The position numbers and the translations under genes are program-made. 64,000 nt of DNA from Flintibacter sp. KGMB00164 (GTDB lineage: Bacteria; Bacillota; Clostridia; Oscillospirales; Oscillospiraceae), in assembly GCF_008727735.1 (NCBI RefSeq), contig NZ_CP044227.1:558001-622000 (forward strand), in the 5' to 3' direction. Of this stretch, positions 5,356 to 26,906 are shown in pieces (the stretch's first letter is position 1; each line of letters opens with the position of its first letter). The notes beneath the pieces were generated by a model. It was not told where the DNA came from and did no database searches. It worked only from the letters and a program-made list of their open reading frames with translations.

Positions 5356-5471
5356 GTCTACCGCAAGTCTACCAGATGTCTACCATAAAATCCCCGCAAT
5401 CTCTTGTCTCACAAGGGATTGCGGGGATTTTTGTTTATAAAATGGAAAGACATGTCTACCAAATGTCTACC
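5356..5471 (+). repeat. 11-bp phased GTCTACC repeats around a hairpin, upstream of SLH2
   Basis: GTCTACC begins at 5356, 5367 and 5378 (exactly 11 apart) and again at 5454 and 5465. Between them, AAATCCCCGCAATC (5388-5401) and GATTGCGGGGATTT (5417-5430) form a long hairpin followed by TTGTTT, a terminator-like structure. Another weak plus-strand hairpin lies at 5316-5340 before a T-run. Direct repeats with 11-bp spacing are what PhoB/OmpR-family regulators commonly bind. That link is inference. Confidence 0.75.
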
Positions 5472-5555
5472 AATTTAACTTTTTACTTCTATTTTCGCTA
5501 CCAAATCATTTTCTATATTGGAATATGCAACCATTTTTAATATGTAAGGGTCGTT

Positions 5556-5644
5556 ATGCTTTGCGATTTTGGTAAAAAAGTTCGCTTTTTGGCCAATATT
5601 TAGGAGAAAACACTCCTTCCTGAATAAAAAAGGAGGAATTTCCA
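5556..5644 (+). promoter_or_regulatory. Conserved SLH leader 2
   Basis: uORF 5556-5603 codes for the same 15-residue peptide as leader 1, after AGGG at five bases. It has the same UUCG-loop hairpin and a CCTTCC arm facing the AAGGAGG site. A weak promoter candidate, TTGGAA (5518-5523) with 17 bases to TATGTA (5541-5546), lies upstream. Confidence 0.6.
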
Positions 5645-8600
5645 ATGAGAAACCTGAAGCGTGCTCTCAGCCTGCTCCTGTCCTCTACCATGGTTCTTGG
5701 TATGCTGGTCATGGGCGGCAGCGCTGCGGGCTACAAGGACGTTGATGCTTCCAACGATCACCAGGAAGCCATCGAGGTCCTGCAGGCTGTCGGCGTCATG
5801 TCTGGCGTTGACAACGAGGGTAACTTTGATCCCGACGGAAGTGTTACCCGCAACCAGATGGCTGTTATCATGGCCCATCTGCTGAACCTGGACTACGATT
5901 ACTATCGTGGTACCAATCCCTTTACTGACGTGCCCGAGTGGGCTGCTCCCTACGTGGCCGCTTGTGCTGCCGAGGGCGTGATTGCCGGTATCGGCAATGG
6001 TCAGTTCGGTGGTGAGATGAAGGTCACCGCCGCTCAGGCCAGCCTGATGATCATGAAGGCTCTGGGCTATTTCCAGAACGCCGAGGACTTCGGTTCTGAC
6101 TGGCAGGTCGCCACCATCCGTCAGGCTTCCTACATCAACCTGTTTGATAAGATCGACTCCAACGCCGAGTCTGCTCTGACCCGTGGCCAGGTGGCTCAGC
6201 TGGTGCTGAATGGCCTGACCTCTGATATGGTCTACTTCACCGGTGACAAGGGCATTCAGATCGGTGATGTAACTGTGGGTTACCGCGCTGAATATACTCA
6301 GAAGACCGGTACTGCTTCTAAGTACAATACTCTGGTAAATGGCAAGACTGACATCTCCGAGCAGGGCCAGTACTACATCCAGCTGGGTGAAGAGCTCTAC
6401 GAGGGTAAGCTGGCCGTGGATCGCGATGTGGATGATTTTGGTCGTCCCACCAACGATTGGACCTACAATAAGGAAGATATCGGCTCCTACGTTAACAAGG
6501 ATCTGATGGTCGCTGAGTATACTGAGGCCTTCGAGTACGGTGATCTGTACAGCGATATTGGTGCAACTGCCGCCAAGAGCTATGATCTGTTTACTTATGT
6601 TGACGGTAAGGTTGGCTCTGTGGATCAGGATAAGATCACCAAGAATAATGACACCGACGTGCCCGATAGCGATCTGGGCGCTCTGACTCAGGTTTTCGTT
6701 GATGTTGAGGCGGAGGAAGTCTATGTGGCCACTATTAACACTTGGCTGGCCAAGGCTATCACTGACTACAACGAGACTACTGGCAAGGCTACTGTTGAGG
6801 TGTACACCGGCCGTAATTCTGACGGTACCACTGCTTCTGTAACCAAGCGTCTGTCTGACGAGGACTTTGAGATCGTCAAGGACATGGCTGAGGGCGATTT
6901 CTTCACCGTCACCATGGCTAAGGATGTTGTGAAGACCGTTGCTGAGCCCGAGGTTGTTTCCGAGGCTACTATCAGCGAGTATTCCTCCAAGCCCGATGAC
7001 GGTCAGTCCTACAAGGATGCTGTTAACGGTCGCCTGACCAAGGTTATTGCCGCTGGCACTACGTACAAGACCGCTGCTCAGGCTTGGTTTGATGCCGAGT
7101 ACCTGTATGACTACGCTGAGAAGCAGCTGGACGGCTTCACCTATGACCTGCTGCTGGATCAGTACGGTAACCTGCTGGGTATCAAGAACGTGACCTCCGA
7201 CGAGGACACCCTTTTCGTGGTTGGTTATGAGGATGGCTCCAGCTACCTGGCTGAGACCGTGGATAAGGCCCTGGTTATCTTCCCCGACGGCACTATGAAG
7301 ACCGTAGATGCCATGGAGAAGAAAGGAACTGCCAAAATCTCTAAGGGTGATGGCGACTTCCGTGTCAATGCTTGGTACGATTATACTGTCAATGCTGATG
7401 GAGTGTATGTCCTCTCTGGTCTGACTGATCGTCAGATTGCTGATGCATATAGCACCTCCGGTAAGATTGACAAAGAAAACACTACTATCGCCGCTACCGG
7501 TGCCATCAACAACACCGATGGTGTTGGTTATATCTTTGGTAACGCCGACTCCACCTATATTTCTGTAACGGCTGACGATAGCGTAGATCCTGCCCGTTCT
7601 ATCGTAGAGGTAAATGGTATCACCACTGGCATTAAAAACACCAGCATTGAGCCCGAGACCGGTTTGCAGTATGACAGTGCCGCTTTCGATGGTGCTACTG
7701 GTTACTACAATGTCTTTGCTCTGTACAACAAGTCCGGCTATGTCACCTACGCTGTGGTTATCGGCGAGGACGGCTCCATTGCCGATAAGCTGGTTTACCT
7801 GACCTCTGGTATCACTTCCAAGTACTATGACTCCACTATTAAGGAGTATGTGTACAAGTATGATGCTATCATCAACGGCGAGCCCACTGAGATCAAGTCT
7901 CTGACTCCCTTCGAGACCGATGGTACTACCGATCTGGTGAAGGATACTCTGTACAAGGCTTCCTATGACGCTGACGGCTTCGTCACCGATATGGAGAAGC
8001 ACGAGTCCAATGTGATGGATAACACCGCCGACTACAAGGCTGAGGGCTACAGCGTCAACAGCTATGCTGTGAATAGCGATGCTACCCTGACTCTGAAGGG
8101 TGCCACCCTGTATCTGCAGGAGGGTAACAACACCAACTATGCCATTCTGGACGAGAACTGCCGCTTCTACGTGAACGGTAAGGACGACAAGGACGGCAAG
8201 TACAACGAGTATGGCAACGCTTCTGCCATGCTGGCTGCCTTGGGCACCGACAACAAGGTTGACGGCGCTGGCAAGATCGTGGTCATCGCTGACAAAAACA
8301 CTGGCTATGCCACCTCCATCATCATCCTCGATGCCAAGTACACCGAGGCTGCTGTGAACCCCTCCAGCAACTATGAGTTCTGGAAGGGCGGCACCCAAAC
8401 TCAGGTCACCAGCCTAACTGGTGTCCAGATTCAGAACGGTACTATCAGTTTCACCGACAGTCTGAAGCTGGTGAACACTGTCTCTTCTAGCACCGTTGCC
8501 GCCAATCGTGTGAAGGTCACCTATGAGGTTGCTACCTGGGATACCGTTAACAACAAGTGGAATGCCTCTCAGACTGTGGAGTCTGCTACCACTGCTACTG

Positions 8601-8746
8601 TAGCCGCAGGTACTGATATCAACACTGTTTGCAGCGCTAGCCTGCCCATGGCTGATGGTGTGTCCTGCAAGGTGACGGTCACCGTTTCCTGCAATGAGCT
8701 GACTTACACCTTCCCCACCGTGGTCGTGGCCGCTCAGGTTATCTAA
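5645..8746 (+). CDS. SLH-domain surface protein 2 (class II core)
   Basis: 1033 residues; ATG follows AAAGGAGGAATTTCCA. It has a signal peptide at 1-27 and three SLH repeats in about 31-205, nearly identical to paralogs 3-5 in this part. The remainder (about 210-1033) diverges. Class II landmarks shared with proteins 3 and 5 are KTDISEQGQYYIQLGEELY, a YV..DLMV.EYT stretch near 290, and FPDGTMKTVDA. No catalytic motif is recognised. It is probably a wall-bound S-layer or adhesin subunit. The first 150 bases and the leader are almost the same as those of SLH4, although the cores belong to different classes. Codon use is strongly biased (CTG, CGT, AAG, GGT). Confidence 0.88.
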   Translation: MRNLKRALSLLLSSTMVLGMLVMGGSAAGYKDVDASNDHQEAIEVLQAVGVMSGVDNEGNFDPDGSVTRNQMAVIMAHLLNLDYDYYRGTNPFTDVPEWAAPYVAACAAEGVIAGIGNGQFGGEMKVTAAQASLMIMKALGYFQNAEDFGSDWQVATIRQASYINLFDKIDSNAESALTRGQVAQLVLNGLTSDMVYFTGDKGIQIGDVTVGYRAEYTQKTGTASKYNTLVNGKTDISEQGQYYIQLGEELYEGKLAVDRDVDDFGRPTNDWTYNKEDIGSYVNKDLMVAEYTEAFEYGDLYSDIGATAAKSYDLFTYVDGKVGSVDQDKITKNNDTDVPDSDLGALTQVFVDVEAEEVYVATINTWLAKAITDYNETTGKATVEVYTGRNSDGTTASVTKRLSDEDFEIVKDMAEGDFFTVTMAKDVVKTVAEPEVVSEATISEYSSKPDDGQSYKDAVNGRLTKVIAAGTTYKTAAQAWFDAEYLYDYAEKQLDGFTYDLLLDQYGNLLGIKNVTSDEDTLFVVGYEDGSSYLAETVDKALVIFPDGTMKTVDAMEKKGTAKISKGDGDFRVNAWYDYTVNADGVYVLSGLTDRQIADAYSTSGKIDKENTTIAATGAINNTDGVGYIFGNADSTYISVTADDSVDPARSIVEVNGITTGIKNTSIEPETGLQYDSAAFDGATGYYNVFALYNKSGYVTYAVVIGEDGSIADKLVYLTSGITSKYYDSTIKEYVYKYDAIINGEPTEIKSLTPFETDGTTDLVKDTLYKASYDADGFVTDMEKHESNVMDNTADYKAEGYSVNSYAVNSDATLTLKGATLYLQEGNNTNYAILDENCRFYVNGKDDKDGKYNEYGNASAMLAALGTDNKVDGAGKIVVIADKNTGYATSIIILDAKYTEAAVNPSSNYEFWKGGTQTQVTSLTGVQIQNGTISFTDSLKLVNTVSSSTVAANRVKVTYEVATWDTVNNKWNASQTVESATTATVAAGTDINTVCSASLPMADGVSCKVTVTVSCNELTYTFPTVVVAAQVI

Positions 8747-8773: not shown

Positions 8774-8812
8774 GGGCCCCTGGATTTTATCCGGGGGCCC
8801 TTGCTTATTTGT
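8774..8812 (+). terminator. Terminator after SLH2
   Basis: GGGCCCC-TGGATTTTATCCG-GGGGCCC followed by TTGCTTATTT. The tail runs into the stop codon of the convergent gene s2. Confidence 0.75.
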
Positions 8813-9305
8813 CCGTTGCAATGAATGCTACATACAGATATGTGACGCCATTGGTGTTCAGTTGAAAAGAGGCATTATTGTAGTGATACCAGGTTACTGT
8901 TTTATTATCCCAGCATACAGTAACGGTAGATTGGTTATAGGCTTCTGAAAAAGACCAGTTCGCGCCCTGTATGAGCATCATTTGAATATTCTCACTTCCT
9001 GTCCGCGTAGATGGAGTAACAAATATAGCCAGTGGTTGTTTTAAAAAAGTCAGCGTACATCCGTTTTCAATACTTCCATAGGTTCCTGTTCCTGTATAAT
9101 TACCATACAGAATCCGACAATTTCCGCATAGTCCAATTTGATTTTCTAATACGGCATCTTTTGCTGCCAGTGAAAAAAGATTATTAAAATGATCGTTTAA
9201 TGTTGCATCTACCTTAATATTATCTTCATTAAACTCCTCCCTCAGCACTTGATCTGTGGCCTCCCACTGACATAGGCCATAATTGCTTGTATAATTGCTT
9301 GCCAT
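8805..9305 (-). CDS. Phage-tail-fibre-like small protein s2 (class A C-terminus)
   Basis: 166 residues from the ATG at 9305 behind GGAGG. It has the common head (MASNYTSNYGLCQWEA, then LREEFNEDNIKVDATL), a short probable coiled coil and then the class A tail. This tail starts at a GNCRILYG motif near residue 60, continues with YTGTGTYGS and LTFLKQPLAIFV, and ends with VTWYHYNNASFQLNTNGVTY. The pattern GTGTxG...LTFP.P.VVI...VSWY...QLN..G.TYYY is familiar from C-terminal domains of clostridial prophage tail proteins (family knowledge, not searched). No signal peptide or membrane segment. Same tail class as s3 and s5. Confidence 0.74.
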   Translation of the reverse strand: MASNYTSNYGLCQWEATDQVLREEFNEDNIKVDATLNDHFNNLFSLAAKDAVLENQIGLCGNCRILYGNYTGTGTYGSIENGCTLTFLKQPLAIFVTPSTRTGSENIQMMLIQGANWSFSEAYNQSTVTVCWDNKTVTWYHYNNASFQLNTNGVTYLYVAFIATDK

Positions 9306-9431: not shown

Positions 9432-9546
9432 GTCTACCGCAGGTCTACCAAATGTCTACCACGGGTCATCTGGAAACCCTTGGGCCGCAACAGTTTCCAG
9501 TCATTTTCTTGGTTCTTCCATCTGCTCGGTCTACCAAAGGTCTACC
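9432..9546 (+). repeat. 11-bp phased GTCTACC repeats upstream of SLH3
   Basis: GTCTACC starts at 9432, 9443 and 9454, then 9529 and 9540; phasing is exactly 11 within each group. The intervening hairpin is weaker here (CTGGAAAC at about 9470 and GTTTCCAG at about 9493). Confidence 0.75.
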
Positions 9547-9630
9547 ACTTCAATTATTTTTCATTATTTCCTCTCAATTTTTATTATATATATCAAATTA
9601 TACAACAAATCTAAAAAAGCAAGGGTCGTT

Positions 9631-9719
9631 ATGCTTTGCGAATTCAGTCAAAAAGCCGCATTTTCGACCAAGATTTGCTAAAAAACTCCTCTTACTGAAT
9701 AAAAAAGGAGGAATTTCCA
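9631..9719 (+). promoter_or_regulatory. Conserved SLH leader 3 (divergent version)
   Basis: uORF 9631-9681 encodes MLCEFSQKAAFSTKIC after AGGG. The internal hairpin keeps its stem by a compensatory change (GTC...GAC instead of GGC...GCC). The masking arm is CTCCTCTT opposite AAGGAGGA, again complementary although different from leader 1. Confidence 0.6.
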
Positions 9720-12700
9720 ATGAGAAACCTGAAGCGTGCTCTCAGCCTGCTCCTGTCCTCTACCATGGTTCTTGGTATGCTGGTCATGGGTTCCAGTGCT
9801 GCGGGCTATCAGGATGTCGATGCTTCCAATGACAATCAGGAAGCTATCGAGGTCCTGCAGAAGGTCGGTATCATGACCGGCGACGAGAACGGGAACTTCA
9901 ATCCTGATGGCAGCATCACCCGTAACGAGATGGCCGTTGTCATGGCTCACCTGCTGAACCTGGACTACGATTACTATCGTGGTACCAATCCCTTTACTGA
10001 CGTGCCCGAGTGGGCCGCTCCCTACGTGGCCGCTTGTGCCGCCGAGGGCGTGGTCACCGGCATCGGCAACGGTCAGTACGGCGGCGACCAGAAGGTTACT
10101 GCTGCTCAGGCCGCTCTGATGATCATGAAGGCTCTGGGCTACTTCCAGAACGCCGAGGACTTCGGCACTGACTGGCAGGTTGCTACCATCCGCCAGGCTT
10201 CCTACATCAACCTGTTTGATAAGATCGACTCCAATGCCGAGTCTGCTCTGACCCGTGGCCAGGTGGCTCAGCTGGTGCTGAACGGTCTGAAGGCCAAGAT
10301 GGTTGACTTCACTGGCGACAAGGGCATCCAGATCGGCGACGTGACCGTGGGCTATCGCGCCGAGTACACTGCCAAGACCGGCACTGATAAGAAGTACAAC
10401 ACCCTGGTGAGCGGCAAGACCGACATCTCTGAGCAGGGCCAGTACTACATCCAGCTGGGCGAGGAACTGTACGACGGCAAGCTGACCGCTACTCCTTCCA
10501 CTGACGACTTTGAGCGTCCCGCTACCACTTGGGTGTACGATAAGAAGGAAATCGGCACCTATGTCAACTGGGATCTGATGGTTGAGGAGTACACCACTGC
10601 TATCACCGGCAAGGACCTCTCTGAAGTGCTGACCAAGACCGCTATCGAAGAGAACTATGTGAACTATTATGTGGACGGCAAGGAGAACCCCACCATCAAG
10701 GCCGAAAACATGATCAAGTCCAACACCAAGACCTACAACACCACCGGCAACGGCGTTCTGACTCAGGTCTTCTTTGATAAGGATGACGAGCAGATCACCA
10801 TTACCTCCATCAACACCTACCTGGCTAAGGCTGATGCCGACTATGATGCTGATGACGAGGAGCTGCTGGTTGACATCTACGCCGATCCTACCTCTCACGA
10901 GGAAGGCGCTGATGCTGAGGTGACTCTGGACGAGGTTGCTGGTATCGAGAAGTACAAGGAAGACGACATGATGCTGGTCAATGTGGCCTGGGATGGCGCT
11001 GACTACAATATCGTCGCTGTCTCCGATGTGACTTCTATGGTCAACGTTGATCTGTCCAAGTACTCTGTGAACAGCTATGTGGTTTCCGATGGCACTCAGT
11101 ACAACTATGCCCTGAACGGCAAGCTGTCTGATAGCCTGAACGAGATTACTACCTATGGCACTGGTGCTCTGACTCAGTACACCTACACCCTGTATCTGGA
11201 TCAGTATGGCTACCTGATCGGCAATGAGGTCTATGAGGGCGATGCCAATTACCTGTTCATGACCGGTTACGATCTGACCGGCAGCAACCTGGCTAATAAG
11301 ACTGCTGATGCCAATGTCATCTTCCTGGACGGCACCATGTCCACCGTAAAGGTTGACAAGGACAAGACTAACTCTGCTATTGGCACTACTGCTTGGTACA
11401 AGACCCTGCGTACCGGCGGTGAGTCTGAGTACAACAAGTGGTTCACCTATGTCACCGAGGAGAAAAACGGCGAGACTGTTTATACCCTGACCCCTGTGGA
11501 TAACTGGATGAACTCCACTTATGCTTCCAACGGCACTGTAAACAGCTACGACTTCCGTGCTCAGGCCAACGGTCTGAATAGCTCTTCCGTAACTTGGAAT
11601 TCCTATGTCTGGGGCAATGATGATTCCACCTATATCACCGTCGAGGCTGGAGTTGTTAGCGACACCACCTACAACGGCATTACCAAAGTTCTGGCTACCT
11701 ACACTGGCGTGGAGGACATCAACCTAGATGTTCTGTCTGCTGGCTCCAACGGTCTGCTTGGTACGAACTACGCCAATAACGCTGTTGATAACGGCCCCAA
11801 TACCGTCTACACTAGCACCAAGGAGGACTCCAGCATTTACGCTGTGGTTGACGATGACAATTATGTCATTGGTGCCGTCATCCTGGGCGAGGATACCACC
11901 TCTACTAACAAGTACGCTTACGTTCTGGAAGACACTCAGAACGAGTGGAAGGACAGCGAGGACAACGTGTACTGGGAGTTCACCGCTATCGTTGATGGCA
12001 AGGTCGAGACCCTGACCATGAAGTCTCCCAAGTCTGGCTACGCCGCTCTGCAGGCTCGCATCGCTGCTCAGCTGGGCACTGATGATATCAACGAGAATGG
12101 CATGATGAAGCTGACCTACGACAAGGACGGCTATGTCATTGACGCCTATGTTGTTTCCGATGCTATTACCAACGGCAAGCTCTATGACAATGCTGATTTC
12201 GGTGTTCTGATGAATCCCGATAATTACAATGTTTACAGCATGCGTTGGGTGACCGGCGGTGTGAATGTCAATGAGGCTTCCTTCAACATCAGCGGCCGTA
12301 CTCTTTATGGTCAGTGGAATGACCGCGGCATCCGCATCAACACCGATGCTCCCGTGTACGTTGTCTGGGAGGAGACCTACACTGGTGGTGAGACTCCCGC
12401 TGTGGTTTACAAGTCCTACAAGGATCTGGATACCGCTATCAAGGCTCTGAGCAATGCCGGTACCTTCGACGGTTGGGTCTCCGCTGTCCTGGCTGACAAC
12501 GGCAACGCTGAGTACATTGTCATTAAGAGCGCCGATCCCGTCAGCGTGACCACTGATGGCGGCGATTCCAAGGATCCCGTTAGCAACATTTCTTCTGTTA
12601 CCCTGAATAGCACTGGTACTACTATTACTGTTCGCGATAATAATGGTACTGCCATTGCTCTGGGCGACCTGAAGGATGTAAGCTGGAAGCTGGAGATGCG

Positions 12701-12875
12701 TGCTCCTGGCCAGGCCTCCTTTGATGTGGCGCTGGATGGTAACGATTATACCACCGAGAAGGCTGGTATTCTCACCTTTATCAGTAGCGTTGGTGGTAAC
12801 ACTGGTGACACTTACTCCTTCCGCGTAACTTTGGATGGTGTAGTTTCCAATACCATTACTATCATTGTCCCCTGA
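9720..12875 (+). CDS. SLH-domain surface protein 3 (class II core)
   Basis: 1051 residues with ATG after AAAGGAGG. It has a signal peptide at 1-27 and SLH repeats at about 31-76, 92-137 and 150-205. The class II core (KTDISEQGQYYIQLGEELY, NTYLAKADADYD, YSVNSYVVSDGTQYNY) is closest to SLH5, to which it aligns along most of its length. The C-terminal 100 residues after a Gly/Asp-rich linker (SVTTDGGDSKDP) look like a small separate beta domain. Probably wall-anchored. Enzyme activity is not indicated. Strong codon bias as in its paralogs. Confidence 0.88.
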   Translation: MRNLKRALSLLLSSTMVLGMLVMGSSAAGYQDVDASNDNQEAIEVLQKVGIMTGDENGNFNPDGSITRNEMAVVMAHLLNLDYDYYRGTNPFTDVPEWAAPYVAACAAEGVVTGIGNGQYGGDQKVTAAQAALMIMKALGYFQNAEDFGTDWQVATIRQASYINLFDKIDSNAESALTRGQVAQLVLNGLKAKMVDFTGDKGIQIGDVTVGYRAEYTAKTGTDKKYNTLVSGKTDISEQGQYYIQLGEELYDGKLTATPSTDDFERPATTWVYDKKEIGTYVNWDLMVEEYTTAITGKDLSEVLTKTAIEENYVNYYVDGKENPTIKAENMIKSNTKTYNTTGNGVLTQVFFDKDDEQITITSINTYLAKADADYDADDEELLVDIYADPTSHEEGADAEVTLDEVAGIEKYKEDDMMLVNVAWDGADYNIVAVSDVTSMVNVDLSKYSVNSYVVSDGTQYNYALNGKLSDSLNEITTYGTGALTQYTYTLYLDQYGYLIGNEVYEGDANYLFMTGYDLTGSNLANKTADANVIFLDGTMSTVKVDKDKTNSAIGTTAWYKTLRTGGESEYNKWFTYVTEEKNGETVYTLTPVDNWMNSTYASNGTVNSYDFRAQANGLNSSSVTWNSYVWGNDDSTYITVEAGVVSDTTYNGITKVLATYTGVEDINLDVLSAGSNGLLGTNYANNAVDNGPNTVYTSTKEDSSIYAVVDDDNYVIGAVILGEDTTSTNKYAYVLEDTQNEWKDSEDNVYWEFTAIVDGKVETLTMKSPKSGYAALQARIAAQLGTDDINENGMMKLTYDKDGYVIDAYVVSDAITNGKLYDNADFGVLMNPDNYNVYSMRWVTGGVNVNEASFNISGRTLYGQWNDRGIRINTDAPVYVVWEETYTGGETPAVVYKSYKDLDTAIKALSNAGTFDGWVSAVLADNGNAEYIVIKSADPVSVTTDGGDSKDPVSNISSVTLNSTGTTITVRDNNGTAIALGDLKDVSWKLEMRAPGQASFDVALDGNDYTTEKAGILTFISSVGGNTGDTYSFRVTLDGVVSNTITIIVP

Positions 12876-12945: not shown

Positions 12946-13413
12946 TTACACAGTATAGAAGGCAATTACGCGGTACGAGACTCCGGCAGAATTAATGATT
13001 ATCCCAAAATTTGCATACCAGGAAACAGTGTTTCCAGACCAACTAAAATATATATTCCCCTGTGGGGAATCAACAGCATAGCTCATCCCTTGATAAAGAA
13101 AATATGCCACGCCGTTACTGTCGGAAAGAATAACCAGAAACGGTTCGCTGGGAAATGTGATGGACGCTTTTCCTGCCTCACCGCTGGTTCCAGTCCCAAT
13201 ATAAGTGCTGCACTCCACCCGACAGTTTCCGATTTTTGTGTTTATAGCACGAATTGCCTCTGTCCGAGCGCTGACCTCGTCTTCAATGGACTGAGCATTT
13301 TGGGCCAGCGCCTCGTCCACCTTTGCGCTGTCCTCATTGAAGTCGGTCCGCAATACCTGATCCGTGGCCTCCCACTGACAAAGGCCATAGTTTTCCGTGT
13401 AATTGCTCAACAT
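12946..13413 (-). CDS. Phage-tail-fibre-like small protein s3 (class A C-terminus)
   Basis: 155 residues from ATG at 13413, eight bases after GGAGG; begins MLSNYTENYGLCQWEA, the only copy with Leu at position 2. A probable coiled coil at about 35-60 (AQNAQSIEDEVSARTEAI) is followed by the class A tail with GNCRVECSTYIGTGTSG, ITFPSEPFLVIL, NTVSWYANF and a final VSYRVIAFY. It converges on SLH3, with its stop only five bases from the terminator. No export signal. Resembles a tail-fibre or receptor-binding fragment rather than a complete phage protein. Confidence 0.74.
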   Translation of the reverse strand: MLSNYTENYGLCQWEATDQVLRTDFNEDSAKVDEALAQNAQSIEDEVSARTEAIRAINTKIGNCRVECSTYIGTGTSGEAGKASITFPSEPFLVILSDSNGVAYFLYQGMSYAVDSPQGNIYFSWSGNTVSWYANFGIIINSAGVSYRVIAFYTV

Positions 13414-13540: not shown

Positions 13541-13656
13541 GTCTACCGCAAGTCTACCAGATGTCTACCATAAAATACCCGCAATCTCTTGTCTCACAAG
13601 GGATTGCGGGTATTTTTGTTTATAAAATGGAAAGACATGTCTACCAAATGTCTACC
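13541..13656 (+). repeat. 11-bp phased GTCTACC repeats around a hairpin, upstream of SLH4
   Basis: GTCTACC starts at 13541, 13552, 13563, then 13639 and 13650. The hairpin (about 13573-13618) is the same as upstream of SLH2 except that CCCC/GGGG has become ACCC/GGGT. This double change keeps the pairing. A plus-strand terminator hairpin (CCCGCC/GGCGGG) precedes it at 13501-13532. Confidence 0.78.
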
Positions 13657-13740
13657 AATTTAACTTTTTACTTCTATTTTCGCTACCAAATCATTTTCTA
13701 TATTGGAATATGCAACCATTTTTAATATGTAAGGATCGTT

Positions 13741-17858: not shown

Positions 17859-17942
17859 ATATTAACTTTTTTAATCCAATTTTATCATTTTATTGGATTT
17901 TTTATTGAAATATGTAACAATTCATGCTGTGTGAGGGTCGTT

Positions 17943-18030: not shown

Positions 18031-21000
18031 ATGAGAAACCTGAAGCGTGCTCTCAGCCTGCTCCTGTCCTCTACCCTGGTTCTGGGTATGCTGGTCATGG
18101 GCGGCAGCGCTGCGGGCTATCAGGACGTCGATGATTCCAACAAGAATCAGGAAGCCATCGAGGTCCTGCAGGCTGTGGGTATCATGACCGGCGATCAGAA
18201 CGGGAACTTTAATCCTGATGGAAGCATCACCCGTAACGAGATGGCCGTCATCATGGCCCACCTGCTGAACCTGGACTACGACTACTATCGTGGTACCAAT
18301 CCCTTTACTGACGTGCCCGAGTGGGCCGCTCCCTACGTGGCCGCTTGTGCCGCCGAGGGCGTGGTCGCCGGCATCGGCAACGGCCAGTTCGGCGGCGATC
18401 AGAAGGTGACCGCTGCTCAGGCCAGCCTGATGATCATGAAGGCTCTGGGCTACTTCGAGAATGCCGAGGACTTCGGCTCTGACTGGCAGGTTGCTACCAT
18501 CCGCCAGGCTTCCTACATCAACCTGTTTGATCAGATCAACGCCAGTGCCGAGAGCGCTCTGACCCGTGGTCAGGTGGCTCAGCTGGTGCTGAACGGCCTG
18601 CAGGCCAAGACCGTGTACTTCACCGGCGACAAGGGCATCCAGATCGGTGATGTGACCGTTGGCTACCGCGCTGAGTACACCCCCAAGACTGGCACCGATA
18701 AGAAGTACAACACCCTGGTGAGCGGCAAGACCGACATCTCTGAGCAGGGTCAGTACTACATCCAGCTGGGCGAGGAACTGTACGACGGCCAGCTGCGCAA
18801 GGCTCCCGATGCCGACGAGTTCGATCGTCCTGCCTTCACCTGGAGCTACAAGGCCCAGAAGATCGGCACCTATGTTGATTGGTCCCTGCTGGTCAAGGAG
18901 TACACCACCGGTGTTACCGGCGAGGATCTGTACAACACTCTGACCTCCAGCGCCATCAAGGCCTATGATTTTGCCTACTATGTGGACGGCAAGACCTCTG
19001 ATGTCATCAAGGCTTCCAATATGATCCGCACCAATGACACCAAGTATACTACCACCGGCAACGGTGCTCTGACTCAGGTGTTTGTGGACAACGAGGAAGA
19101 GGAGATCACCATCACCACCATCAATACCTATCTGGCTCAGGCCACTGCTGATTACAACGAGAAGAAGGAGAACCTGTCTCTCGATGTAAAGCAGAACGAT
19201 GGTTATGTGTTCAACACCACCACCGTTTCTCTGGCCGACATTCCCGGTATTGAGAAGTACAAGGAAGAGGACTTTGTGGTCGTGAACGTGGCCGAGAACT
19301 CCAACGGCAAGTATGACATTGTCACTGTCGCTGATCCCGAGGTCATGAGCGATACCACCCTGAGCAAGTATTCCGTCAACTCCTATGTGGTGGCTGATGG
19401 CACTCAGTACGACTATGCCAAGAAGGGCACTGTGTACAATGCTGATCCTCTGAAGGCGTATGATAAGACCGCTCTGACCAACTACACTTACAACGTGTAT
19501 CTGGATAAGTACGGCTATATCATCGGCACCGAGATCTACTCCGGTGAGGCCAACTACCTGTTCCTGACTGGTTACGATCTCAACGGCAGCAACCTGGCTG
19601 TTACTACCGCTGACGCCGGCGCTATCTTCCTGGATGGCACCTTCAGCGAGATCAAGATCGATGTCACCGCTACTCAGGATAACCTGGATAAGGACACTCA
19701 GAATGCTGATTACCCCGACCTGAAGGACGGCAAGAACGTCACTCCTTCTGACAAGGGTACTGGCTCTTCCGAGTACAACATGTGGTTCACCTACAACACC
19801 ACTGAGAAGAACGGCGAGACCATCTACACCCTGGCTCCTGTGGCCGCTAACCGCTGGGCTTCCCAGGCCGCTACCTCTAGCGACACCAAGATCAACAGCG
19901 CCAACGTCCGTGTGATTGACAACTCTAAGGTTGCCTACGGCAACGATGACTCTGTCTACATCACCGTGGACACCGGTGCCGTGGATCTGAACACCGCTAT
20001 GGGCATCACTAAGGTTACCGGCACCTATACTGGCGTTCAGAATGTGGACCTGAAGGTCTTCAAGGCTGACGACAATGCTCTGACCAACGATCCTGCTATC
20101 ATGGCTGTGTATGATGAGGATCTGTACATCATCGGTGCCATTGTGGTGGGCGAGGATGCCAACGCTACCGACAACTACGCTTACGTCCTCGAGGGCGCTG
20201 AGAACGAGTATGTCGACAGCAACGACAACTACTACTGGGACTTCACCGCTGTTGTTGACGGCGAGATCAAGACCCTGACCGTTAAGACCAAGTATCAGTC
20301 CGTCATCAGCGCCATCCAGGCTCAGTGCGGCGCCGACAAGAACGGCCTGATGAAGCTGACCTATGACGTGGATGGCTATGTCATCGCTGCTTCTGTGATG
20401 AACGACGGCAACGCTACCGATAAGGTCTACGGTGCCAGCGATTGGGGCACTGTTATCGATGCCGGTAATGAGACCCTGTATAGCCTGAGATGGAACTCCG
20501 GCTACAAGGCCAACTTCACCGTTGCTGGCCGTACTCTGTACGGTGCTACCTCCGATGTGGGCCTGACCCTGGAGACTGGTGCTCCTGTGATCGTGGTTCA
20601 GGAGGAAGTGTCCAACACTGGTATCACCCGTCTGACCTACACTGCTTACACCACCATTTCTCAGGCTCTGGATTCTCTGAACGATAAGACCGCCTTTGAG
20701 GGTTGGGTGTCTGCTGTCCTGAACGACAAGGGTACTGCCGAGTACATTGTGATCAATAGCGCTGATGCTATCGGCTTTGACAGCGATGATGGCAGCACTC
20801 CCAACAACGGCAAGGTGACTGGTGTTTCCATTGCTGACACTGGTGTTGTAACTCTGTCTCTGAGCAGTTCTGTTGCCGCTGGTAGCAACTTTGAGGTTAC
20901 CCTGTATCAGCTGCGTGACAATGGTTATGTGGCCGTCGGTAACTTCACCGTTGCTGCTGATGGCACCAAGGCTCCCACTGCTGACCTGTCCGGTTCTATG

Positions 21001-21063
21001 GCCAGTGGCCAGACCTATAAGGTTGTCTGCGGCGCTTACAGCGATACCGTTGTTATGAAGTGA
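18031..21063 (+). CDS. SLH-domain surface protein 5 (class II core)
   Basis: 1010 residues from the ATG at 18031, seven bases after GGAGG. An earlier in-frame ATG at 17956 lies in the leader and would place the signal peptide internally, so it is rejected. Signal peptide 1-27, three SLH repeats to about 205, class II core very like SLH3 (KTDISEQGQYYIQLGEELY, YNEKKENLSL, YSVNSYVVADGTQYDY). The last 90 residues form a short beta-rich end (VTGVSIADTGVV). Strongly biased, GC-ending codons, more so than SLH1. Probably an S-layer or adhesin subunit. Confidence 0.88.
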   Translation: MRNLKRALSLLLSSTLVLGMLVMGGSAAGYQDVDDSNKNQEAIEVLQAVGIMTGDQNGNFNPDGSITRNEMAVIMAHLLNLDYDYYRGTNPFTDVPEWAAPYVAACAAEGVVAGIGNGQFGGDQKVTAAQASLMIMKALGYFENAEDFGSDWQVATIRQASYINLFDQINASAESALTRGQVAQLVLNGLQAKTVYFTGDKGIQIGDVTVGYRAEYTPKTGTDKKYNTLVSGKTDISEQGQYYIQLGEELYDGQLRKAPDADEFDRPAFTWSYKAQKIGTYVDWSLLVKEYTTGVTGEDLYNTLTSSAIKAYDFAYYVDGKTSDVIKASNMIRTNDTKYTTTGNGALTQVFVDNEEEEITITTINTYLAQATADYNEKKENLSLDVKQNDGYVFNTTTVSLADIPGIEKYKEEDFVVVNVAENSNGKYDIVTVADPEVMSDTTLSKYSVNSYVVADGTQYDYAKKGTVYNADPLKAYDKTALTNYTYNVYLDKYGYIIGTEIYSGEANYLFLTGYDLNGSNLAVTTADAGAIFLDGTFSEIKIDVTATQDNLDKDTQNADYPDLKDGKNVTPSDKGTGSSEYNMWFTYNTTEKNGETIYTLAPVAANRWASQAATSSDTKINSANVRVIDNSKVAYGNDDSVYITVDTGAVDLNTAMGITKVTGTYTGVQNVDLKVFKADDNALTNDPAIMAVYDEDLYIIGAIVVGEDANATDNYAYVLEGAENEYVDSNDNYYWDFTAVVDGEIKTLTVKTKYQSVISAIQAQCGADKNGLMKLTYDVDGYVIAASVMNDGNATDKVYGASDWGTVIDAGNETLYSLRWNSGYKANFTVAGRTLYGATSDVGLTLETGAPVIVVQEEVSNTGITRLTYTAYTTISQALDSLNDKTAFEGWVSAVLNDKGTAEYIVINSADAIGFDSDDGSTPNNGKVTGVSIADTGVVTLSLSSSVAAGSNFEVTLYQLRDNGYVAVGNFTVAADGTKAPTADLSGSMASGQTYKVVCGAYSDTVVMK

Positions 21064-21129: not shown

Positions 21130-21612
21130 TCATCTTCCCTTATCTAGCAGAGCGACAATCTGATAGGAGTGGTCGGGATAATTCAGCAGGACTTCTGCAC
21201 TGCCGTCGTAAAACCACGACATAGTATTAGCTTCCCACGTAATCTCCAGCCCATTATGCCCCACAACAGGGATTATTTTTCCTTGACAGGCAATGATATC
21301 GCTCGCATTAGAGAGAAAACCTGTCCACATGCTCATAATCATAACAACGATTGGTTTGTGAGGAAATACATGGAACATGGTTTTGGTTTCTCCATCCCCT
21401 GTGTAGCTGGCAGTATAAAGCTGACAATTTCCAAGCTTGATAATGTAAGCCTGTTGTTTTTCCAGAAGATCTTCCTGTTGTGTCATAGTTTGCGCGAGTG
21501 TGTCCAGAGCTGTGTCCACCTTCACATTATCCTGATTGAATTCCTCCCGCAGTACCTGGTCCGTTTCCTCCCACTGGCACAGACTGTAGTGTTCCGTATA
21601 ATTGCTCGCCAT
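21130..21612 (-). CDS. Phage-tail-fibre-like small protein s5 (class A C-terminus)
   Basis: 160 residues from the ATG at 21612 after GGAGG. It has the head MASNYTEHYSLCQWEETDQV, a probable coiled coil (LDTLAQTMTQQEDLLEKQQ) and the class A tail: LGNCQLYTASYTGDGE, HVFPHKPIVVMIM, ANTMSWFYDGSAEVLLN, SYQIVALL. It is the last small gene before the array is interrupted by four unrelated genes. No export signal. Probably derived from a phage tail fibre, with function unknown. Confidence 0.73.
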   Translation of the reverse strand: MASNYTEHYSLCQWEETDQVLREEFNQDNVKVDTALDTLAQTMTQQEDLLEKQQAYIIKLGNCQLYTASYTGDGETKTMFHVFPHKPIVVMIMSMWTGFLSNASDIIACQGKIIPVVGHNGLEITWEANTMSWFYDGSAEVLLNYPDHSYQIVALLDKGR

Positions 21613-22109: not shown

Positions 22110-23285
22110 TTGATTCAGTATTTGATTCGGCGTTGGTTGGACGGCCGGGACCCTAAGTCGCCTGAGGTGCGTCAGATGTGCGGCACCCGGGCCGGCGGAG
22201 TGGGTATCGTGCTCAATACGCTGTTGTGTCTGGGGAAGCTGCTGGCCGGTGTGATCACTGGCTCCATTGCAATCGTGGGTGACGCATTAAATAACCTGTC
22301 TGATGCTGCCTCGTCTGTGATTACCCTTATAGGGTTCCGTTTGGCCGGGCAGGAGGCGGATGAGGAGCATCCCTTTGGTCATGGCCGCATGGAATATCTG
22401 GCCGGCTTGGTGGTGTCTATGGCGATTCTACTTATGGGATTTGAGCTGGGAAAATCCTCGGTGGAGAAGCTGCTCCATCCGGAAGAACTGGACTTCTCCT
22501 GGCTGGCTGTGATCATTCTGGCCGTGTCTGTGGCAGTCAAGGTATGGATGTACTTCTTTAACCGTACGCTGTCTCAGAAGATCAGCTCAGAGACGATGGC
22601 GGCCACCGCAGCCGACTCTCTCTCCGATTCAGCGGCCACCAGTGTGGTTTTGCTGGCTACACTAGTCGGACATTTCTTCCATTGGAAGATCGACGGCTTT
22701 GCCGGGTTGCTTGTGGCCCTGTTCATTTTGAAAACCGGCTGGGAGGCTGCAAAAGATACTCTGGATCCGCTTCTGGGCCGGCCGATGGACCCGGAACTGG
22801 CGGCAGATATCGACCAGCTGGTCCTCTCCCACGAAAATATCCTGGGCATTCACGACTTGGTCTATCATGACTATGGACCCGGACGGGCTATGATGTCTTT
22901 TCATGCCGAGGTTCCTGCCGATGCCGATCTGCTGGAGATGCACGATCTCATCGACCACATCGAGCGGGAGTTGAAGGAGAAACACCACATTGAGACCGTC
23001 ATCCATATGGACCCGGTGGTCAACGACGGGCGCACCACTTCTTTGCGGGAACAGGTAGCCTATCTGGCTCAGCAGCTGGACCCCTGTCTCACCATTCATG
23101 ACCTGCGTATTACTGCAGGTCCCCACCATACCAATGTGCTGTTTGACGTGATGGTACCCTATGGTTTCCGCCTTACCGATCATCAGGTGGTCTCGCAGCT
23201 GCGGAAGGACGTGGAGGCGCTGTCTCCCAAGTATTCTGCCGTTATTCAGGTGGATCATTCCTATGTAGAGCGCCGGGAAAAGTAA
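22110..23285 (+). CDS. Cation diffusion facilitator (CDF) family metal transporter
   Basis: 391 residues with a TTG start after AGGGGGA. CDF proteins export divalent metals (Zn, Fe, Mn, Co) across the membrane in exchange for protons. Seen: the GDALNNLSD motif at 58-65 with both metal-site Asp residues, HPFGHGRMEY at 87-96, the second AADSLSD site, and about six membrane segments in the first 220 residues. A cytoplasmic tail has HIERELKEKHHIETVIHMDP and an additional 90-residue extension. Metal specificity cannot be read from this. It has its own promoter and is not clearly part of the flanking SLH array. Confidence 0.9.
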   Translation: MIQYLIRRWLDGRDPKSPEVRQMCGTRAGGVGIVLNTLLCLGKLLAGVITGSIAIVGDALNNLSDAASSVITLIGFRLAGQEADEEHPFGHGRMEYLAGLVVSMAILLMGFELGKSSVEKLLHPEELDFSWLAVIILAVSVAVKVWMYFFNRTLSQKISSETMAATAADSLSDSAATSVVLLATLVGHFFHWKIDGFAGLLVALFILKTGWEAAKDTLDPLLGRPMDPELAADIDQLVLSHENILGIHDLVYHDYGPGRAMMSFHAEVPADADLLEMHDLIDHIERELKEKHHIETVIHMDPVVNDGRTTSLREQVAYLAQQLDPCLTIHDLRITAGPHHTNVLFDVMVPYGFRLTDHQVVSQLRKDVEALSPKYSAVIQVDHSYVERREK

Positions 23286-23371
23286 TTTACAAAATATTCA
23301 CCTCACTCGGGGGATTTTCCACTATAATATGACTAAACTGAGAATCCACATAGAAACGGAGGAAGTTATCT

Positions 23372-24073
23372 ATGGCGCAGAAGGTTTTGATCGTAGAGGA
23401 TGACAGCAACATTGCTGAGCTGCTCCATCTGTATCTGGAAAAGGAAGGTTTTGAGACCAAGGTAGCCAAAGACGGAGGCAAGGGCGTGGAGTATTTCCGT
23501 TCCTTCCAGCCTGCTTTGGTTCTGCTTGATATTATGCTGCCGGTGATGGATGGCTGGACCGTATTGAAGAAGATCCGGGAGGAGAGTGCCACACCAGTCA
23601 TTATGCTTACAGCCAAAGGTGAGACAGAGGATAAGGTCACCGGGCTGGAGAGCGGGGCAGACGACTATATTGTAAAGCCCTTTGAGATGAAAGAGGTTCT
23701 GGCCCGCATCCATGCGGTGATGCGCCGCACCGGCCAGGAGGAGGAACAGGAGAACAAGAAGCTCAGCTTTGATAAGCTGGTGATCAACCTGGATTCCTAC
23801 GAACTGCTGGTGGATGGCAAGCGGGTAGATACGCCGCCGAAGGAGTTGGAGCTTTTGTACCACCTGGCCTCTGCCCCCAACCGGGTATTTACCCGCAACC
23901 AGCTGCTGGATGAGGTGTGGGGCTTTGACTACTTTGGCGACAGCCGTACGGTAGATGTGCACATCAAGCGTCTGAGAGAGAAGCTGGAGGGCGTGAGCAA
24001 TCAGTGGCGTCTGAAAACTGTATGGGGCGTGGGCTACAAATTTGAAGTTGCTCCCGCCGGTGCAAACAGCTGA
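23372..24073 (+). CDS. OmpR/PhoB-family response regulator
   Basis: 233 residues; ATG eight bases after GGAGG. Receiver domain 1-120 with acidic pair D10/D11, phospho-acceptor D53 in LLDIMLP, T80 and K102. Winged-helix DNA-binding domain about 130-228 (RVFTRNQLLDEVWG, RTVDVHIKRLREKL). Followed after 18 bases by its kinase, then by an HtrA protease; one operon is likely. A TATAAT at 23323-23328 with a poor -35 is a possible promoter. Family members bind direct repeats spaced 11 bp, and exactly such repeats precede the neighbouring SLH genes. Regulation of those genes is an inference. Confidence 0.95.
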   Translation: MAQKVLIVEDDSNIAELLHLYLEKEGFETKVAKDGGKGVEYFRSFQPALVLLDIMLPVMDGWTVLKKIREESATPVIMLTAKGETEDKVTGLESGADDYIVKPFEMKEVLARIHAVMRRTGQEEEQENKKLSFDKLVINLDSYELLVDGKRVDTPPKELELLYHLASAPNRVFTRNQLLDEVWGFDYFGDSRTVDVHIKRLREKLEGVSNQWRLKTVWGVGYKFEVAPAGANS

Positions 24074-24091
24074 TTTGAAGGGGGTGATCCC

Positions 24092-25546
24092 TTGAAAAGC
24101 TTATATAAGCGGCAGCTCATCATGATGGTAGGGATCGTGGCCCTGTCTTTTACCTTGCTGTCTACCGCATTTATGCTGCTGTCCTATCGGTATATTATTT
24201 CAGAGACCCGGGATCGCCTGGAGCGAAATGCGGGGTATATTGCCTCGTTTACCTCGGAGTATTTTACCTCGGACTACTATTTAAAAACCCAGGGAACCAT
24301 TTTGGAGGAAGCTGGAGAAGATTTTTACCGGGCCAATGTGGAGACGCTGACCGCCATGTCGGACTCCTCCATTATCGTGGCTGATTCAAACGGGGAAATT
24401 ATCTATGCCTCTGAGAGCGAGCTGTACACGAAGAAAATCCCGCAGAATGTTGTGGATCAGATCCAGGAGCGTGGCAGCTACACCGGGATTACCACGCTGA
24501 ATGGTCTGTACTCCAGCGGACGTTATTTTGCCGGCCTGCCTATCAATGTAAAGATCGGCGATTTGGAGATCAGCCAAGGTTTGGTGCTGGTTTCTGGAGA
24601 TACCAGCGGACTTTCCGAAATGTGGCGTGCCACGGCGACGATCTTCTTCTTTGCTGCCGTGGTGGTGCTTCTGATCGCTGTGATTGCCAGCTCCATTACT
24701 TCTGCCCATCAGACCCGTCCTCTTACCGAGATGGCCGAGGCGGCACGGAAATTTGGACGCGGGGAATTTGATGTACGGGTCAACAACTATAAAGACCGAT
24801 GTGATGAGATCGGAGAGCTGGCCGACGCCTTTAACTCCATGGCGAACTCACTGGCTAAAGTGGAGAACCAGCGCGCTGACTTTATTGCCAATGTGTCCCA
24901 TGAGCTGAAGACCCCCATGACTACTATTTCCGGCTTTGCAGAAGGTATCCTGGACGGTACCATTCCTCCGGAAAAGGAGCAGGACGCGCTGAAAATCGTG
25001 GTCTCAGAGACCCGTCGGCTCAGCCGTCTGGTCCGGAGGATGTTGGATCTCTCCCGTCTCAACGCTCTGGCTGAGAACAGTATTACCGCACAGGAGCAGT
25101 TTGATCTGGTGGAAGTGGTCTCTCAGGTTATTATCAGCCTGGATGGAAAGATTACAGACCGAAATCTGGATATGGATGTTCAGATGCCGGAGGACAAGCT
25201 GATGGTGTGGGGTGACCCGGACTCGGTCACTCAGGTTTGCTACAACTTGATAGATAATGCGGCCAAATTTGCCGCCGCTGGGACCAGCATTACACTTCGC
25301 ATCACAAAGAAGGATGGCAAAGCATATACTTCCATCAGCAATCTAGGTGCTACCATTCCCCAGGATGAGCTGCCCCTTCTGTTTGAACGTTTTCATAAGG
25401 CGGACTACTCCCGCAGTATGGATCGGGATGGCGTGGGTCTGGGCCTGTATATCGTCAAGACCATTTTGGGCAACCTAAAAGAAAATATTACCGTCACCAG
25501 CGAAGATGGTCTGACCACCTTTACCTTTACGCTCACGCTGGCCTGA
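24092..25546 (+). CDS. Membrane sensor histidine kinase
   Basis: 484 residues from a TTG behind GAAGGGGGTG. Membrane segments at about 11-32 and 182-202 enclose an extracellular sensor of about 150 residues. HAMP follows at about 203-258. The HisKA domain has H270 in FIANVSHELKTP, and the ATPase domain has the N-box NLIDNAAK (about 385-392) and G-box DGVGLGLYIV (about 446-455). It phosphorylates the preceding regulator. The signal is unknown. Coupling to HtrA downstream suggests sensing of wall or secretion stress, which is inference from context. Confidence 0.95.
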   Translation: MKSLYKRQLIMMVGIVALSFTLLSTAFMLLSYRYIISETRDRLERNAGYIASFTSEYFTSDYYLKTQGTILEEAGEDFYRANVETLTAMSDSSIIVADSNGEIIYASESELYTKKIPQNVVDQIQERGSYTGITTLNGLYSSGRYFAGLPINVKIGDLEISQGLVLVSGDTSGLSEMWRATATIFFFAAVVVLLIAVIASSITSAHQTRPLTEMAEAARKFGRGEFDVRVNNYKDRCDEIGELADAFNSMANSLAKVENQRADFIANVSHELKTPMTTISGFAEGILDGTIPPEKEQDALKIVVSETRRLSRLVRRMLDLSRLNALAENSITAQEQFDLVEVVSQVIISLDGKITDRNLDMDVQMPEDKLMVWGDPDSVTQVCYNLIDNAAKFAAAGTSITLRITKKDGKAYTSISNLGATIPQDELPLLFERFHKADYSRSMDRDGVGLGLYIVKTILGNLKENITVTSEDGLTTFTFTLTLA

Positions 25547-25566
25547 CGAAAGACTGGAGTTATCCT

Positions 25567-26784
25567 ATGACGCAGCAACCGCAAGATCTCTGGCAGGGCG
25601 GCCCTTGGGAGCAGCCCTCTCCGCACTATCCAACTCCACCGGCCGTGGTGATTCCGCCTCGCGCTCCCGATATTTTGCGGCCCAAGCGCCGCCGCCCCAG
25701 ACGGGCACTGCTGATTTTTCTTCTGGTGTTTGTCCTGCTGCTGGGATTGGCGGTAGGTATGCTTGTCGTGCGCTACCTCTTGCCGCAGACGGGCGGGGGA
25801 AACGATCCCCAGATTTCTCAGACTTCTCAATCGGAGGATCCCTTTGGTAAGCTGGAGCGGGCACAAACAGGGACAGGCGTAACTGTGCCGATCAGCCAAG
25901 CCTCGGGTCCAGCTCTAACCGCCACAGAGATCTATGAAAAAAATGTAAATTCCATCGTTTCCATTGAAGGCGAAGGAGAAGACAGCTATGGGTCAGGTAC
26001 TGGTGTAGTCATGACTCAGGACGGCTATATTATTACCAACGCCCATGTCGTGGCGGATATGCGCCGGGTACGGGTGATTTTCTCTGATGATTCTATCTTA
26101 CCTGCCAGACTGGTGGGTGCTGATGCGGAGGAGGATATCGCGGTTCTTAAAGTGGAAGCAGAGGGACTGACTCCGGCAGAATTCGGCGATTCCGATCAGC
26201 TGCGCTGCGGAGATATGGTGGTTGCCATTGGTGACCCCTTGGGGTACCGGACCTCCATTACCCAAGGGATCGTATCCGCTCTGAACCGGACTGTAGAGGT
26301 GGATGGGATCCTGATGGACCTCATTCAAACCAGTGCCCCTATCAATTTTGGCAATTCCGGCGGCGCACTCATCAATGACCACGGTCAGGTGGTAGGAATC
26401 ACCACTATTAAGATCGTTTCGGATGATGGTACCGTGGAAGGGCTGGGCTTTGCGATTCCTATGGCCCGGGTCAAGCTGGTGGCTGATCGCCTGATTGCCG
26501 GTCGTCCGGCGGCTATGCTGGGCATCACAGTGCTCACACAACCAGAAGAATCTGGCGGACTGAGAGTCTATGAGGTCGTGCAAGATAGTAACGCCTGGCA
26601 GGCCGGCGTTCGCGAGGATGATATCCTGCTGAGCGTGAATGGTGTCAGTGTGGACAGCCTCGACCGCTTAAAACAGATTGTAGCCAGTCTGGTTGTGGGA
26701 AATGAAGCCACAGTGCGTATTTTACGGGATGGTCAAGAACTGGAGTTTTCCTTTGTCATTCAGAGCCGGGAAGCGCTAGGGTAA
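25567..26784 (+). CDS. HtrA/DegP-like membrane-anchored serine protease
   Basis: 405 residues, starting 20 bases after the kinase. It has a Pro-rich cytoplasmic start, one membrane anchor at about 47-69, then a trypsin-like domain with H160 (TNAHVV), D190 (EEDIAVLK) and S264 (GNSGGAL). One PDZ domain follows at about 310-398. It acts outside the membrane in quality control of exported or misfolded proteins. Its place between two-component genes and a highly expressed S-layer gene is sensible for a protein-folding stress response. The SLH6 repeat region begins seven bases after its stop, and the hairpin there doubles as its terminator. Confidence 0.94.
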   Translation: MTQQPQDLWQGGPWEQPSPHYPTPPAVVIPPRAPDILRPKRRRPRRALLIFLLVFVLLLGLAVGMLVVRYLLPQTGGGNDPQISQTSQSEDPFGKLERAQTGTGVTVPISQASGPALTATEIYEKNVNSIVSIEGEGEDSYGSGTGVVMTQDGYIITNAHVVADMRRVRVIFSDDSILPARLVGADAEEDIAVLKVEAEGLTPAEFGDSDQLRCGDMVVAIGDPLGYRTSITQGIVSALNRTVEVDGILMDLIQTSAPINFGNSGGALINDHGQVVGITTIKIVSDDGTVEGLGFAIPMARVKLVADRLIAGRPAAMLGITVLTQPEESGGLRVYEVVQDSNAWQAGVREDDILLSVNGVSVDSLDRLKQIVASLVVGNEATVRILRDGQELEFSFVIQSREALG

Positions 26785-26791
26785 TACCTTC

Positions 26792-26906
26792 GTCTACCAC
26801 AGGTCTACCAAATGTCTACCACAAAACCTCCGGAAACCGTTGTCTCTCAACGGTTTCCGGAGGTTTCTTTTTTTAGCTGGAAAGATTTGTCTACCAAATG
26901 TCTACC
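26792..26906 (+). repeat. 11-bp phased GTCTACC repeats around a strong terminator, upstream of SLH6
   Basis: GTCTACC starts at 26792, 26803 and 26814, then 26889 and 26900. The hairpin is a perfect 19-bp stem (26824-26842 with 26848-26866) followed by CTTTTTTTT. Its sequence is unrelated to the SLH2/SLH4 hairpin, so structure and position are kept while sequence is not. No small gene lies upstream here, so the repeats go with the SLH gene. Confidence 0.8.

Follow-up and report, generated by a model that had tools for sequence, protein, structure and literature searches.

What are the phased GTCTACC repeats upstream of the S-layer homology (SLH) genes of Flintibacter sp. KGMB00164 for? The DNA studied here (the window: 64,000 nucleotides, positions 558,001 to 622,000 of contig NZ_CP044227.1) holds five arrays of this heptamer, each ahead of an SLH gene, and the original prediction ascribed them to a protein binding one face of the DNA. 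Sequence comparison across genomes makes it very likely, in our view, that the repeats are arm sites of a recombinase, that a 17-bp core element downstream of them is its crossover site, and that together they form a switch by which a single promoter serves a set of S-layer genes. As far as the sequences go, this reading is carried by four features: SLH gene copies have at their core either an array or a promoter and not both, the geometry of array and core is fixed, the flanks of the core are shuffled among copies with breakpoints at the core, and a tyrosine recombinase co-occurs with the arrays. Below, genomes are denoted by G numbers and loci by L numbers.

All five arrays lie where the original prediction had placed them, with three repeats 5' and two repeats 3' of a hairpin. 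Of the 25 GTCTACC sites claimed, 23 are exact, while those at 17743 (GTATACC) and 17841 (GCCTACC) have one mismatch each. The hairpin is weak by eye in the arrays starting at 9432 and 17743. Less remains of the "decayed pair" claimed at 1296, which reads GTCCACC and then TTCTACC, is weak, and has a spacing of 12 bp rather than 11. The array features are as follows, with "arm-site" the proposed role; clusters are assigned from repeat and pair counts and hairpins from the sequence, the first also from class statistics over arrays.

5356–5384, plus strand: first arm-site cluster, three GTCTACC at 11-bp steps
5390–5432, plus strand: hairpin followed by a T-run, intrinsic-terminator-like
5454–5471, plus strand: second arm-site cluster, two GTCTACC
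9432–9460, plus strand: first arm-site cluster
9529–9546, plus strand: second arm-site cluster
13541–13569, plus strand: first arm-site cluster
13639–13656, plus strand: second arm-site cluster
17743–17771, plus strand: first arm-site cluster, first unit GTATACC
17841–17858, plus strand: second arm-site cluster, first unit GCCTACC
26792–26820, plus strand: first arm-site cluster, directly 3' of an htrA-like gene
26827–26874, plus strand: hairpin plus T-run, terminator-like
26889–26906, plus strand: second arm-site cluster

The window contains 30 copies of GTCTACC, where 100 shuffles averaged 5.8 and reached 13 at most. Pairs at exact 11-bp steps, with at most two mismatches, number 15, and shuffling yields 0.28 on average. 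The genome-wide pair search that the original prediction had called for returned 16 exact and 2 one-mismatch pairs, all within positions 555376–584906 of the contig (C1), so that near-exact pairs are found nowhere outside a single SLH cluster of 30 kb; the remaining 10 pairs have two mismatches each and are scattered. At up to two mismatches a reversed control pattern gave 36 matches in this genome against 28 for the true pattern, and hence only near-exact pairs carry meaning; exact matches of the control are absent from the genome. The search also brought out a sixth array (555376–555490, minus strand), situated 2.5 kb beyond the left edge of the window and upstream of a seventh SLH gene starting MRNLKR.

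Among 200 genomes of the family an exact 11-bp pair is found in 13, with the reversed control giving scattered single matches. In the DNA inspected from the twelve genomes other than that of the window, the array mostly lies upstream of an MRNLK- or MNNLK-type gene; no such start is visible 3' of the array in G045 and G069, the start after the array in G154 is MKKLLAL, and the single pair in G098 (L037) stands before an unrelated gene and may be due to chance. A wider collection scan returned at least 120 array stretches, and of the 57 arrays among these with at least 400 bp downstream, 54 have an M[RN]NL[KR][RK] start within 480 bp, the exceptions being L091, L121 and L173. L121 and L173 both come from one metagenome-assembled genome titled Bacteroidales (Horse_feces130), and L173 is a longer GTCTACC run. 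Across 92 distinct arrays with two clusters, the clusters are separated by 57–60 bp (50 arrays), 67–72 bp (41) or 90 bp (1) and never 61–66 bp, in a scan that for most of these loci permitted gaps of 52–80 bp only and over copies that are related to one another, which makes the counts not independent. The claim that an 11-bp phase is kept despite sequence drift thus extends beyond the window.

Could the repeats instead work at the RNA level, in a leader whose hairpins attenuate transcription? Of 115 distinct arrays, 72 do have a terminator-like hairpin in the interval from first cluster to core, where five shuffles gave 4–9. Its place is not fixed, however (between the clusters in 45 of the 115 and after the second cluster in 46), the arrays have no Rfam match above gathering score to a known riboswitch or leader RNA, and terminators insulating silent genes would account for the hairpins. 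We find the RNA explanation scarcely credible.

A further element at a fixed distance is the core TGYAAGGGGNGTNRYAC, which lies 70–73 bp 3' of the last repeat in 89 of the 92 two-cluster arrays, when sought 40–130 bp downstream of that repeat and accepted at 11 or more of 15 positions. One array has it at 47 bp (L126) and in two, both in L173, none was found. The core is often accompanied by an inverted partner such as CCCCT in the bases after it, and the stretch between array and core is less conserved than the core itself. All 82 arrays scored have C or T at core position +9, and 7 of the 8 promoter copies defined by regular expression have A there. In the window the distance from last repeat to core is exactly 71 bp in all five arrays, and a sixth core, ahead of the SLH gene at 1642, has a promoter in place of an array.

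5543–5559, plus strand: core, proposed crossover site, TGTAAGGGTCGTTATGC, 71 bp after the last repeat
9618–9634, plus strand: core, 71 bp after the last repeat
13728–13744, plus strand: core, 71 bp after the last repeat
17930–17946, plus strand: core, 71 bp after the last repeat
26978–26994, plus strand: core, 71 bp after the last repeat
1540–1556, plus strand: core of the promoter-bearing site, GGCAAGGGGAGTTATGC, with A at +9

The SLH gene at 1642 thus shares the core, lacks the array, and has the promoter abutting the core. The genes and the promoter elements are these, with SLH domains assigned by Pfam in the array copies.

1471–1485, plus strand: TTAC-N7-TTAC direct repeat at the promoter copy, 31 bp 5' of TTGAC
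1502–1530, plus strand: sigma-A-type promoter TTGACG-N17-TATGAT, proposed single expression site
1642–4506, plus strand: SLH gene u1, joined to the promoter in this assembly
5645–8746, plus strand: SLH gene u5, array copy, proposed silent, ATG start
9720–12875, plus strand: SLH gene u9, array copy
13830–16982, plus strand: SLH gene u13, array copy
18031–21063, plus strand: SLH gene u17, array copy, ATG at 18031
27079–29766, plus strand: SLH gene u26, array copy

This division holds across genomes. In a tally from which 18 SLH starts were excluded for want of a scored core (arrays precede 5 of these), a sigma-A −35/−10 pair within 70 bp 5' of the core is missing from 81 of 82 array copies, and 8 of 13 array-free copies have a promoter in that interval. 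As to the other five, L306, L315 and L352 have a promoter farther upstream, the core match of L231, in G022, is spurious (a separate check shows the promoter of that genome), and at L126, the locus with the short array-to-core distance, a second, array-free copy has no recognised promoter. Among the copies examined, eleven genomes each hold exactly one promoter copy of the array core type together with 1–10 array copies. The window genome has six array copies to its one promoter copy; G204 has ten (11/11 matches), G205 eight (9/10 matches examined), G200 ten (13/13 matches), G118 three (4/4), G071 two (3/3), G206 two (3/3) and G203 one (2/3 examined), while counting MRNLKR copies only, G022 has two, and G078 and G189 one each. 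The copies of G087, G014, G050, G030 and G182 were inspected in part. In two genomes of the same genus, G039 and G128, which have no recombinase match at E 1e-35 and no exact array, an MRNLKR gene with promoter is found. The seven SLH proteins of the window genome share 64–79% mean identity over the first 260 alignment columns and 16–28% beyond, as expected of surface variants.

Do the repeats then form an operator for these genes? Binding of a protein to one DNA face, as originally predicted, fits the 11-bp steps, two classes of cluster gap roughly one helical turn apart and the near-fixed distance to the core. The transcription-factor role implied by it finds no such support: in the 70 bp ahead of the core, a sigma-A promoter is missing from all but one of 82 array copies and present in the array-free sister. 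None of the regulators examined follows the arrays across genomes, as the recombinase described below does, and the repeats are probably not a transcription-factor operator. The most specific form of this alternative holds that an OmpR/PhoB-type response regulator activates or represses the SLH genes from the repeats. Seven-base units at 11-bp steps are a common layout of OmpR/PhoB-type operators, an OmpR-type regulator gene (23372–24073) lies between the arrays, and an orphan OmpR-type regulator gene directly precedes the sixth array. The former is found in 190 of the 200 family genomes, of which 13 have exact pairs, and was set aside as array binder for want of specificity; the latter has matches at E 1e-50 in 5 of 12 genomes searched, including the window's own and two at 40–43% identity, and none in the other 7. 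The promoter check covered the sigma-A class only, and within that class the array copies have no promoter at the core; a response regulator would, moreover, leave the reshuffling described below unexplained. We give this alternative a slim chance. An operator of the SARP type was rejected as well (BTAD regulator in 4 of 13 exact-motif genomes, 55 of 200 overall), as was the reading of AAGGGG...TATAC as an extended −10, the promoter copies having TTGAC-N17-TATAAT-like boxes upstream of that element. A likelier transcription-factor site is TTAC-N7-TTAC, an 11-bp direct repeat which all 14 promoter copies checked carry exactly 31 bp 5' of TTGAC and which lies near 6 of 216 array stretches (not deduplicated); it is a good candidate for the site of an S-layer promoter regulator, and at 1471–1485 we take it to resemble a WalR-type box.

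Within a genome, how alike two copies are over the 68 bp to the left of the core is uncoupled from how alike they are to its right (r = 0.11 in G000, −0.20 in G204, −0.23 in G205, −0.22 in G200 and −0.81 in G202; all correlations are plain r values on 4–10 copies each), and adjacent right segments are coupled to each other (0.81, 0.52, 0.93, 0.67 and 1.0, respectively), as are left segments among themselves in G000 (0.73), G205 (0.44) and G202 (0.88). Where two copies agree on one flank and differ on the other, the last mismatch on the left side sits at core −3 to +9 in 17 of 19 cases and at −33 in the other two; for three such pairs the first mismatch on the right side sits at +8, +18 and +23. 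Promoter and array copies with a common right side last differ at +9 in 3 of 3 pairs, including 1642 versus 13830 and 18031. By these measures the copies have had their left and right flanks shuffled relative to one another, the breakpoints falling at the core. Ordinary homologous recombination or gene conversion, with repeats that merely mark duplicated DNA, might be thought to produce the same picture, as the SLH copies are paralogous and highly similar 3' of the core. Yet breakpoints then ought to fall along the conserved leader, and they lie within or next to the 17-bp element in the 17 of 19 and 3 of 3 cases just given, while cluster gaps are restricted to 57–60 or 67–72 bp in 91 of 92 arrays; we regard this explanation as highly improbable.

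A candidate enzyme for the proposed switch is a tyrosine recombinase whose gene lies divergently beside an array in G022 and G078 and, by coordinates, adjoins one in G118, G182 and G050, all five genomes belonging to one clade. The units beside it are GGCTACC or close variants (in G078, GGGTACC and GGCTACC at 12 bp). At a cut-off of E 2e-82 or better, set at the gap between 2e-82 and 4e-50, full-length relatives occur in 26 of the 200 family genomes, namely in 10 of 13 with the exact motif and 16 of 187 others (Fisher p = 5e-8), and 8 of these 16 carry variant arrays: of the GGCTACC type in G022, G118, G182, G050, G078 and G158, TTCTACC in G030, and GTCTACC at 12-bp steps in G071. R208, K243, H321, R324, H347 and Y357, which we take to be the catalytic set, are invariant in the 18 of 26 members aligned. 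PF14659 (core-binding, SAM-like) and PF00589 (catalytic) score above cut-off in 8 of 8 members scanned, and all 26 proteins have an N-terminal extension ahead of the SAM-like domain. Matches to solved structures are integrase and Xer-type chains, including 6emy (Int protein) and 1z1g (Integrase), presumably the integrases of Tn1549 and lambda, respectively. Heptamer type and the recombinase tree agree imperfectly: the closest relative of G158 (GGCTACC) is G087 (GTCTACC). In such enzymes arm-binding domains recognise accessory arm sites, and mobile-element recombinases arose through gain of an arm-binding domain, according to PMC8138268. From co-occurrence and adjacency, this recombinase is a candidate binder of GTCTACC. 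A phage origin was considered and dropped, a single-protein scan finding no relative in viral contigs; the 1,108 phage records that match the recombinase are all below 60% identity (27.6–29.1% in the ten listed).

Taken together, these findings suggest the following course of events. The expression site (1471–1642) would consist of promoter, core and gene without arms, and every other copy of arms, core and gene, with no promoter at the core and often with a terminator blocking read-through, so that array copies would be silent. Recombination from core to core would swap the upstream parts, so that a silent gene would gain the promoter and the formerly active one the arms. In the window genome the promoter points along the plus strand and the array at 555376 along the minus strand, an arrangement in which these two can invert; thereafter the promoter, now facing minus, could invert with any plus-strand copy. 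G200 has its promoter copy on the plus strand of its contig and its ten array copies on minus strands, nine of them on the same contig. We infer that exchange proceeds mainly by inversion and that it would yield phase variation of the cell surface. Going one step further, we lean towards a domesticated arm-site integrase that ensures exclusive S-layer expression by site asymmetry, with exactly one gene on, and that is widespread in gut Oscillospiraceae: the sole arm-free (attB-like) site would bear the promoter, the silent genes would bear arm-containing (attP-like) sites, and each exchange would swap the two states.

Several points weigh against this switch. The basis is one assembly per species, in which inversion junctions, read heterogeneity and expression were not observed, and five window arrays are co-oriented with the promoter site, so that direct exchange would delete DNA. 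The few copies behind each correlation count here too, as do the weak left-side coupling in G204 (−0.16) and G200 (0.19) and the r of 0.53 between the far-left segment and the right side in G000 (0.25, −0.01, −0.37 and −0.84 in G204, G205, G200 and G202). No promoter copy turned up in G202, where 4 arrays could be read out of 7 matches, or in G207 (3/3 matches, all arrays); a promoter-like match occurs somewhere in the 430 bp before the gene in 5 of 47 array copies; and five array copies yielded no scored core. G200 has two further array-free MRNLKR copies, L317 and L318 (contig C10 of G200, near 299130 and 306810), whose core is of the different GGGGAGGTTTCC type. Only one of them comes with a promoter of its own, and the pair may constitute an additional switch operating separately in that genome. 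On the side of the enzyme, the cut-off was chosen after the matches were seen, and arm-binding PF14657 matches 1 of 8 members at E 0.006, below cut-off. G146, G056, G064, G133, G082, G184, G122 and G029 have the recombinase and, among the matches listed, no array or one isolated relaxed-pattern match, while array genomes G086 and G045 gave no recombinase match where their genus-mates G157 and G133 did. In the window genome itself the recombinase gene (C1:2273528–2274646) is unlinked to the arrays, its neighbours including mraW and a penicillin-binding protein gene.

The proposed switch has relatives among known systems. In Campylobacter fetus, sap inversion likewise switches one promoter among S-layer genes; that organism is Gram-negative, its S-layer is of a non-SLH type and no arm-site recombinase is known to take part. 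Integrases of the Tn916/Tn1549 and lambda types share the domain order, the catalytic set and the use of arm and core sites, and differ in that they move mobile elements whereas the targets proposed here are S-layer genes. CwpV of Clostridioides difficile is a phase-variably expressed cell-wall protein of Clostridia as well, a matter of one gene rather than of one promoter for many. The proposed switch resembles in operation the Vpma switch of Mycoplasma agalactiae (Xer1), for which the accessible part of PMC2268961 describes a unique promoter, silent surface-protein genes, recombination sites in the 5' untranslated region and a tyrosine recombinase. It differs in that the putative recombination sites are given as the 72 bases preceding the start codon and that this part of the paper mentions no arm sites, unlike the phased arrays found here on promoterless copies only, and the products here are SLH-type S-layer proteins of gut Bacillota. 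By analogy, the present switch would be a variant of Vpma-like promoter switches to which arm sites and an integrase-type enzyme have been added. We found no description of it in titles and abstract openings of the open-licence literature, and a term search of the review PMC11868660 returned no mention.

Some further features were noted. Between the SLH genes, 22110–26784 holds a cation efflux gene, the OmpR-type response regulator, a histidine kinase and an HtrA-like protease. Six small divergent minus-strand open reading frames, with a common start like MASNYTENYGLCQWEATDQVLREEFNED and variable ends, have no Pfam or PHROG match, and the three checked against NCBIfam had none there.

4578–5258, minus strand: small divergent open reading frame
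8805–9305, minus strand: small divergent open reading frame
12946–13413, minus strand: small divergent open reading frame
17046–17645, minus strand: small divergent open reading frame
21130–21612, minus strand: small divergent open reading frame
30586–31194, minus strand: small divergent open reading frame

Rfam places a cobalamin riboswitch at 53076–53259 (minus) and a T-box leader at 60578–60815 (plus). In viral contigs GTCTACC arrays gave 16 matches, with the core in four (L389, L391, L394 and L397) and an MRNLKR gene in three of these. The other twelve (L383–L388, L390, L392, L393, L395, L396 and L398) have GTCTACC and GGTAGAC in both orientations and a different context; possibly, and this is a guess, their repeats are replication iterons of satellite elements.

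If the proposed switch is real, common gut commensals (from records titled Flavonifractor, Pseudoflavonifractor and Lawsonibacter) would change their outermost protein coat by programmed DNA rearrangement, with up to about ten silent alternatives per genome, which would bear on how they meet phages and host immunity. The signature of arms, 70–73 bp and core would allow such genes to be found in any genome, and an arm-site integrase architecture that is usually tied to mobile elements (PMC8138268) would here serve as a switch for host genes.

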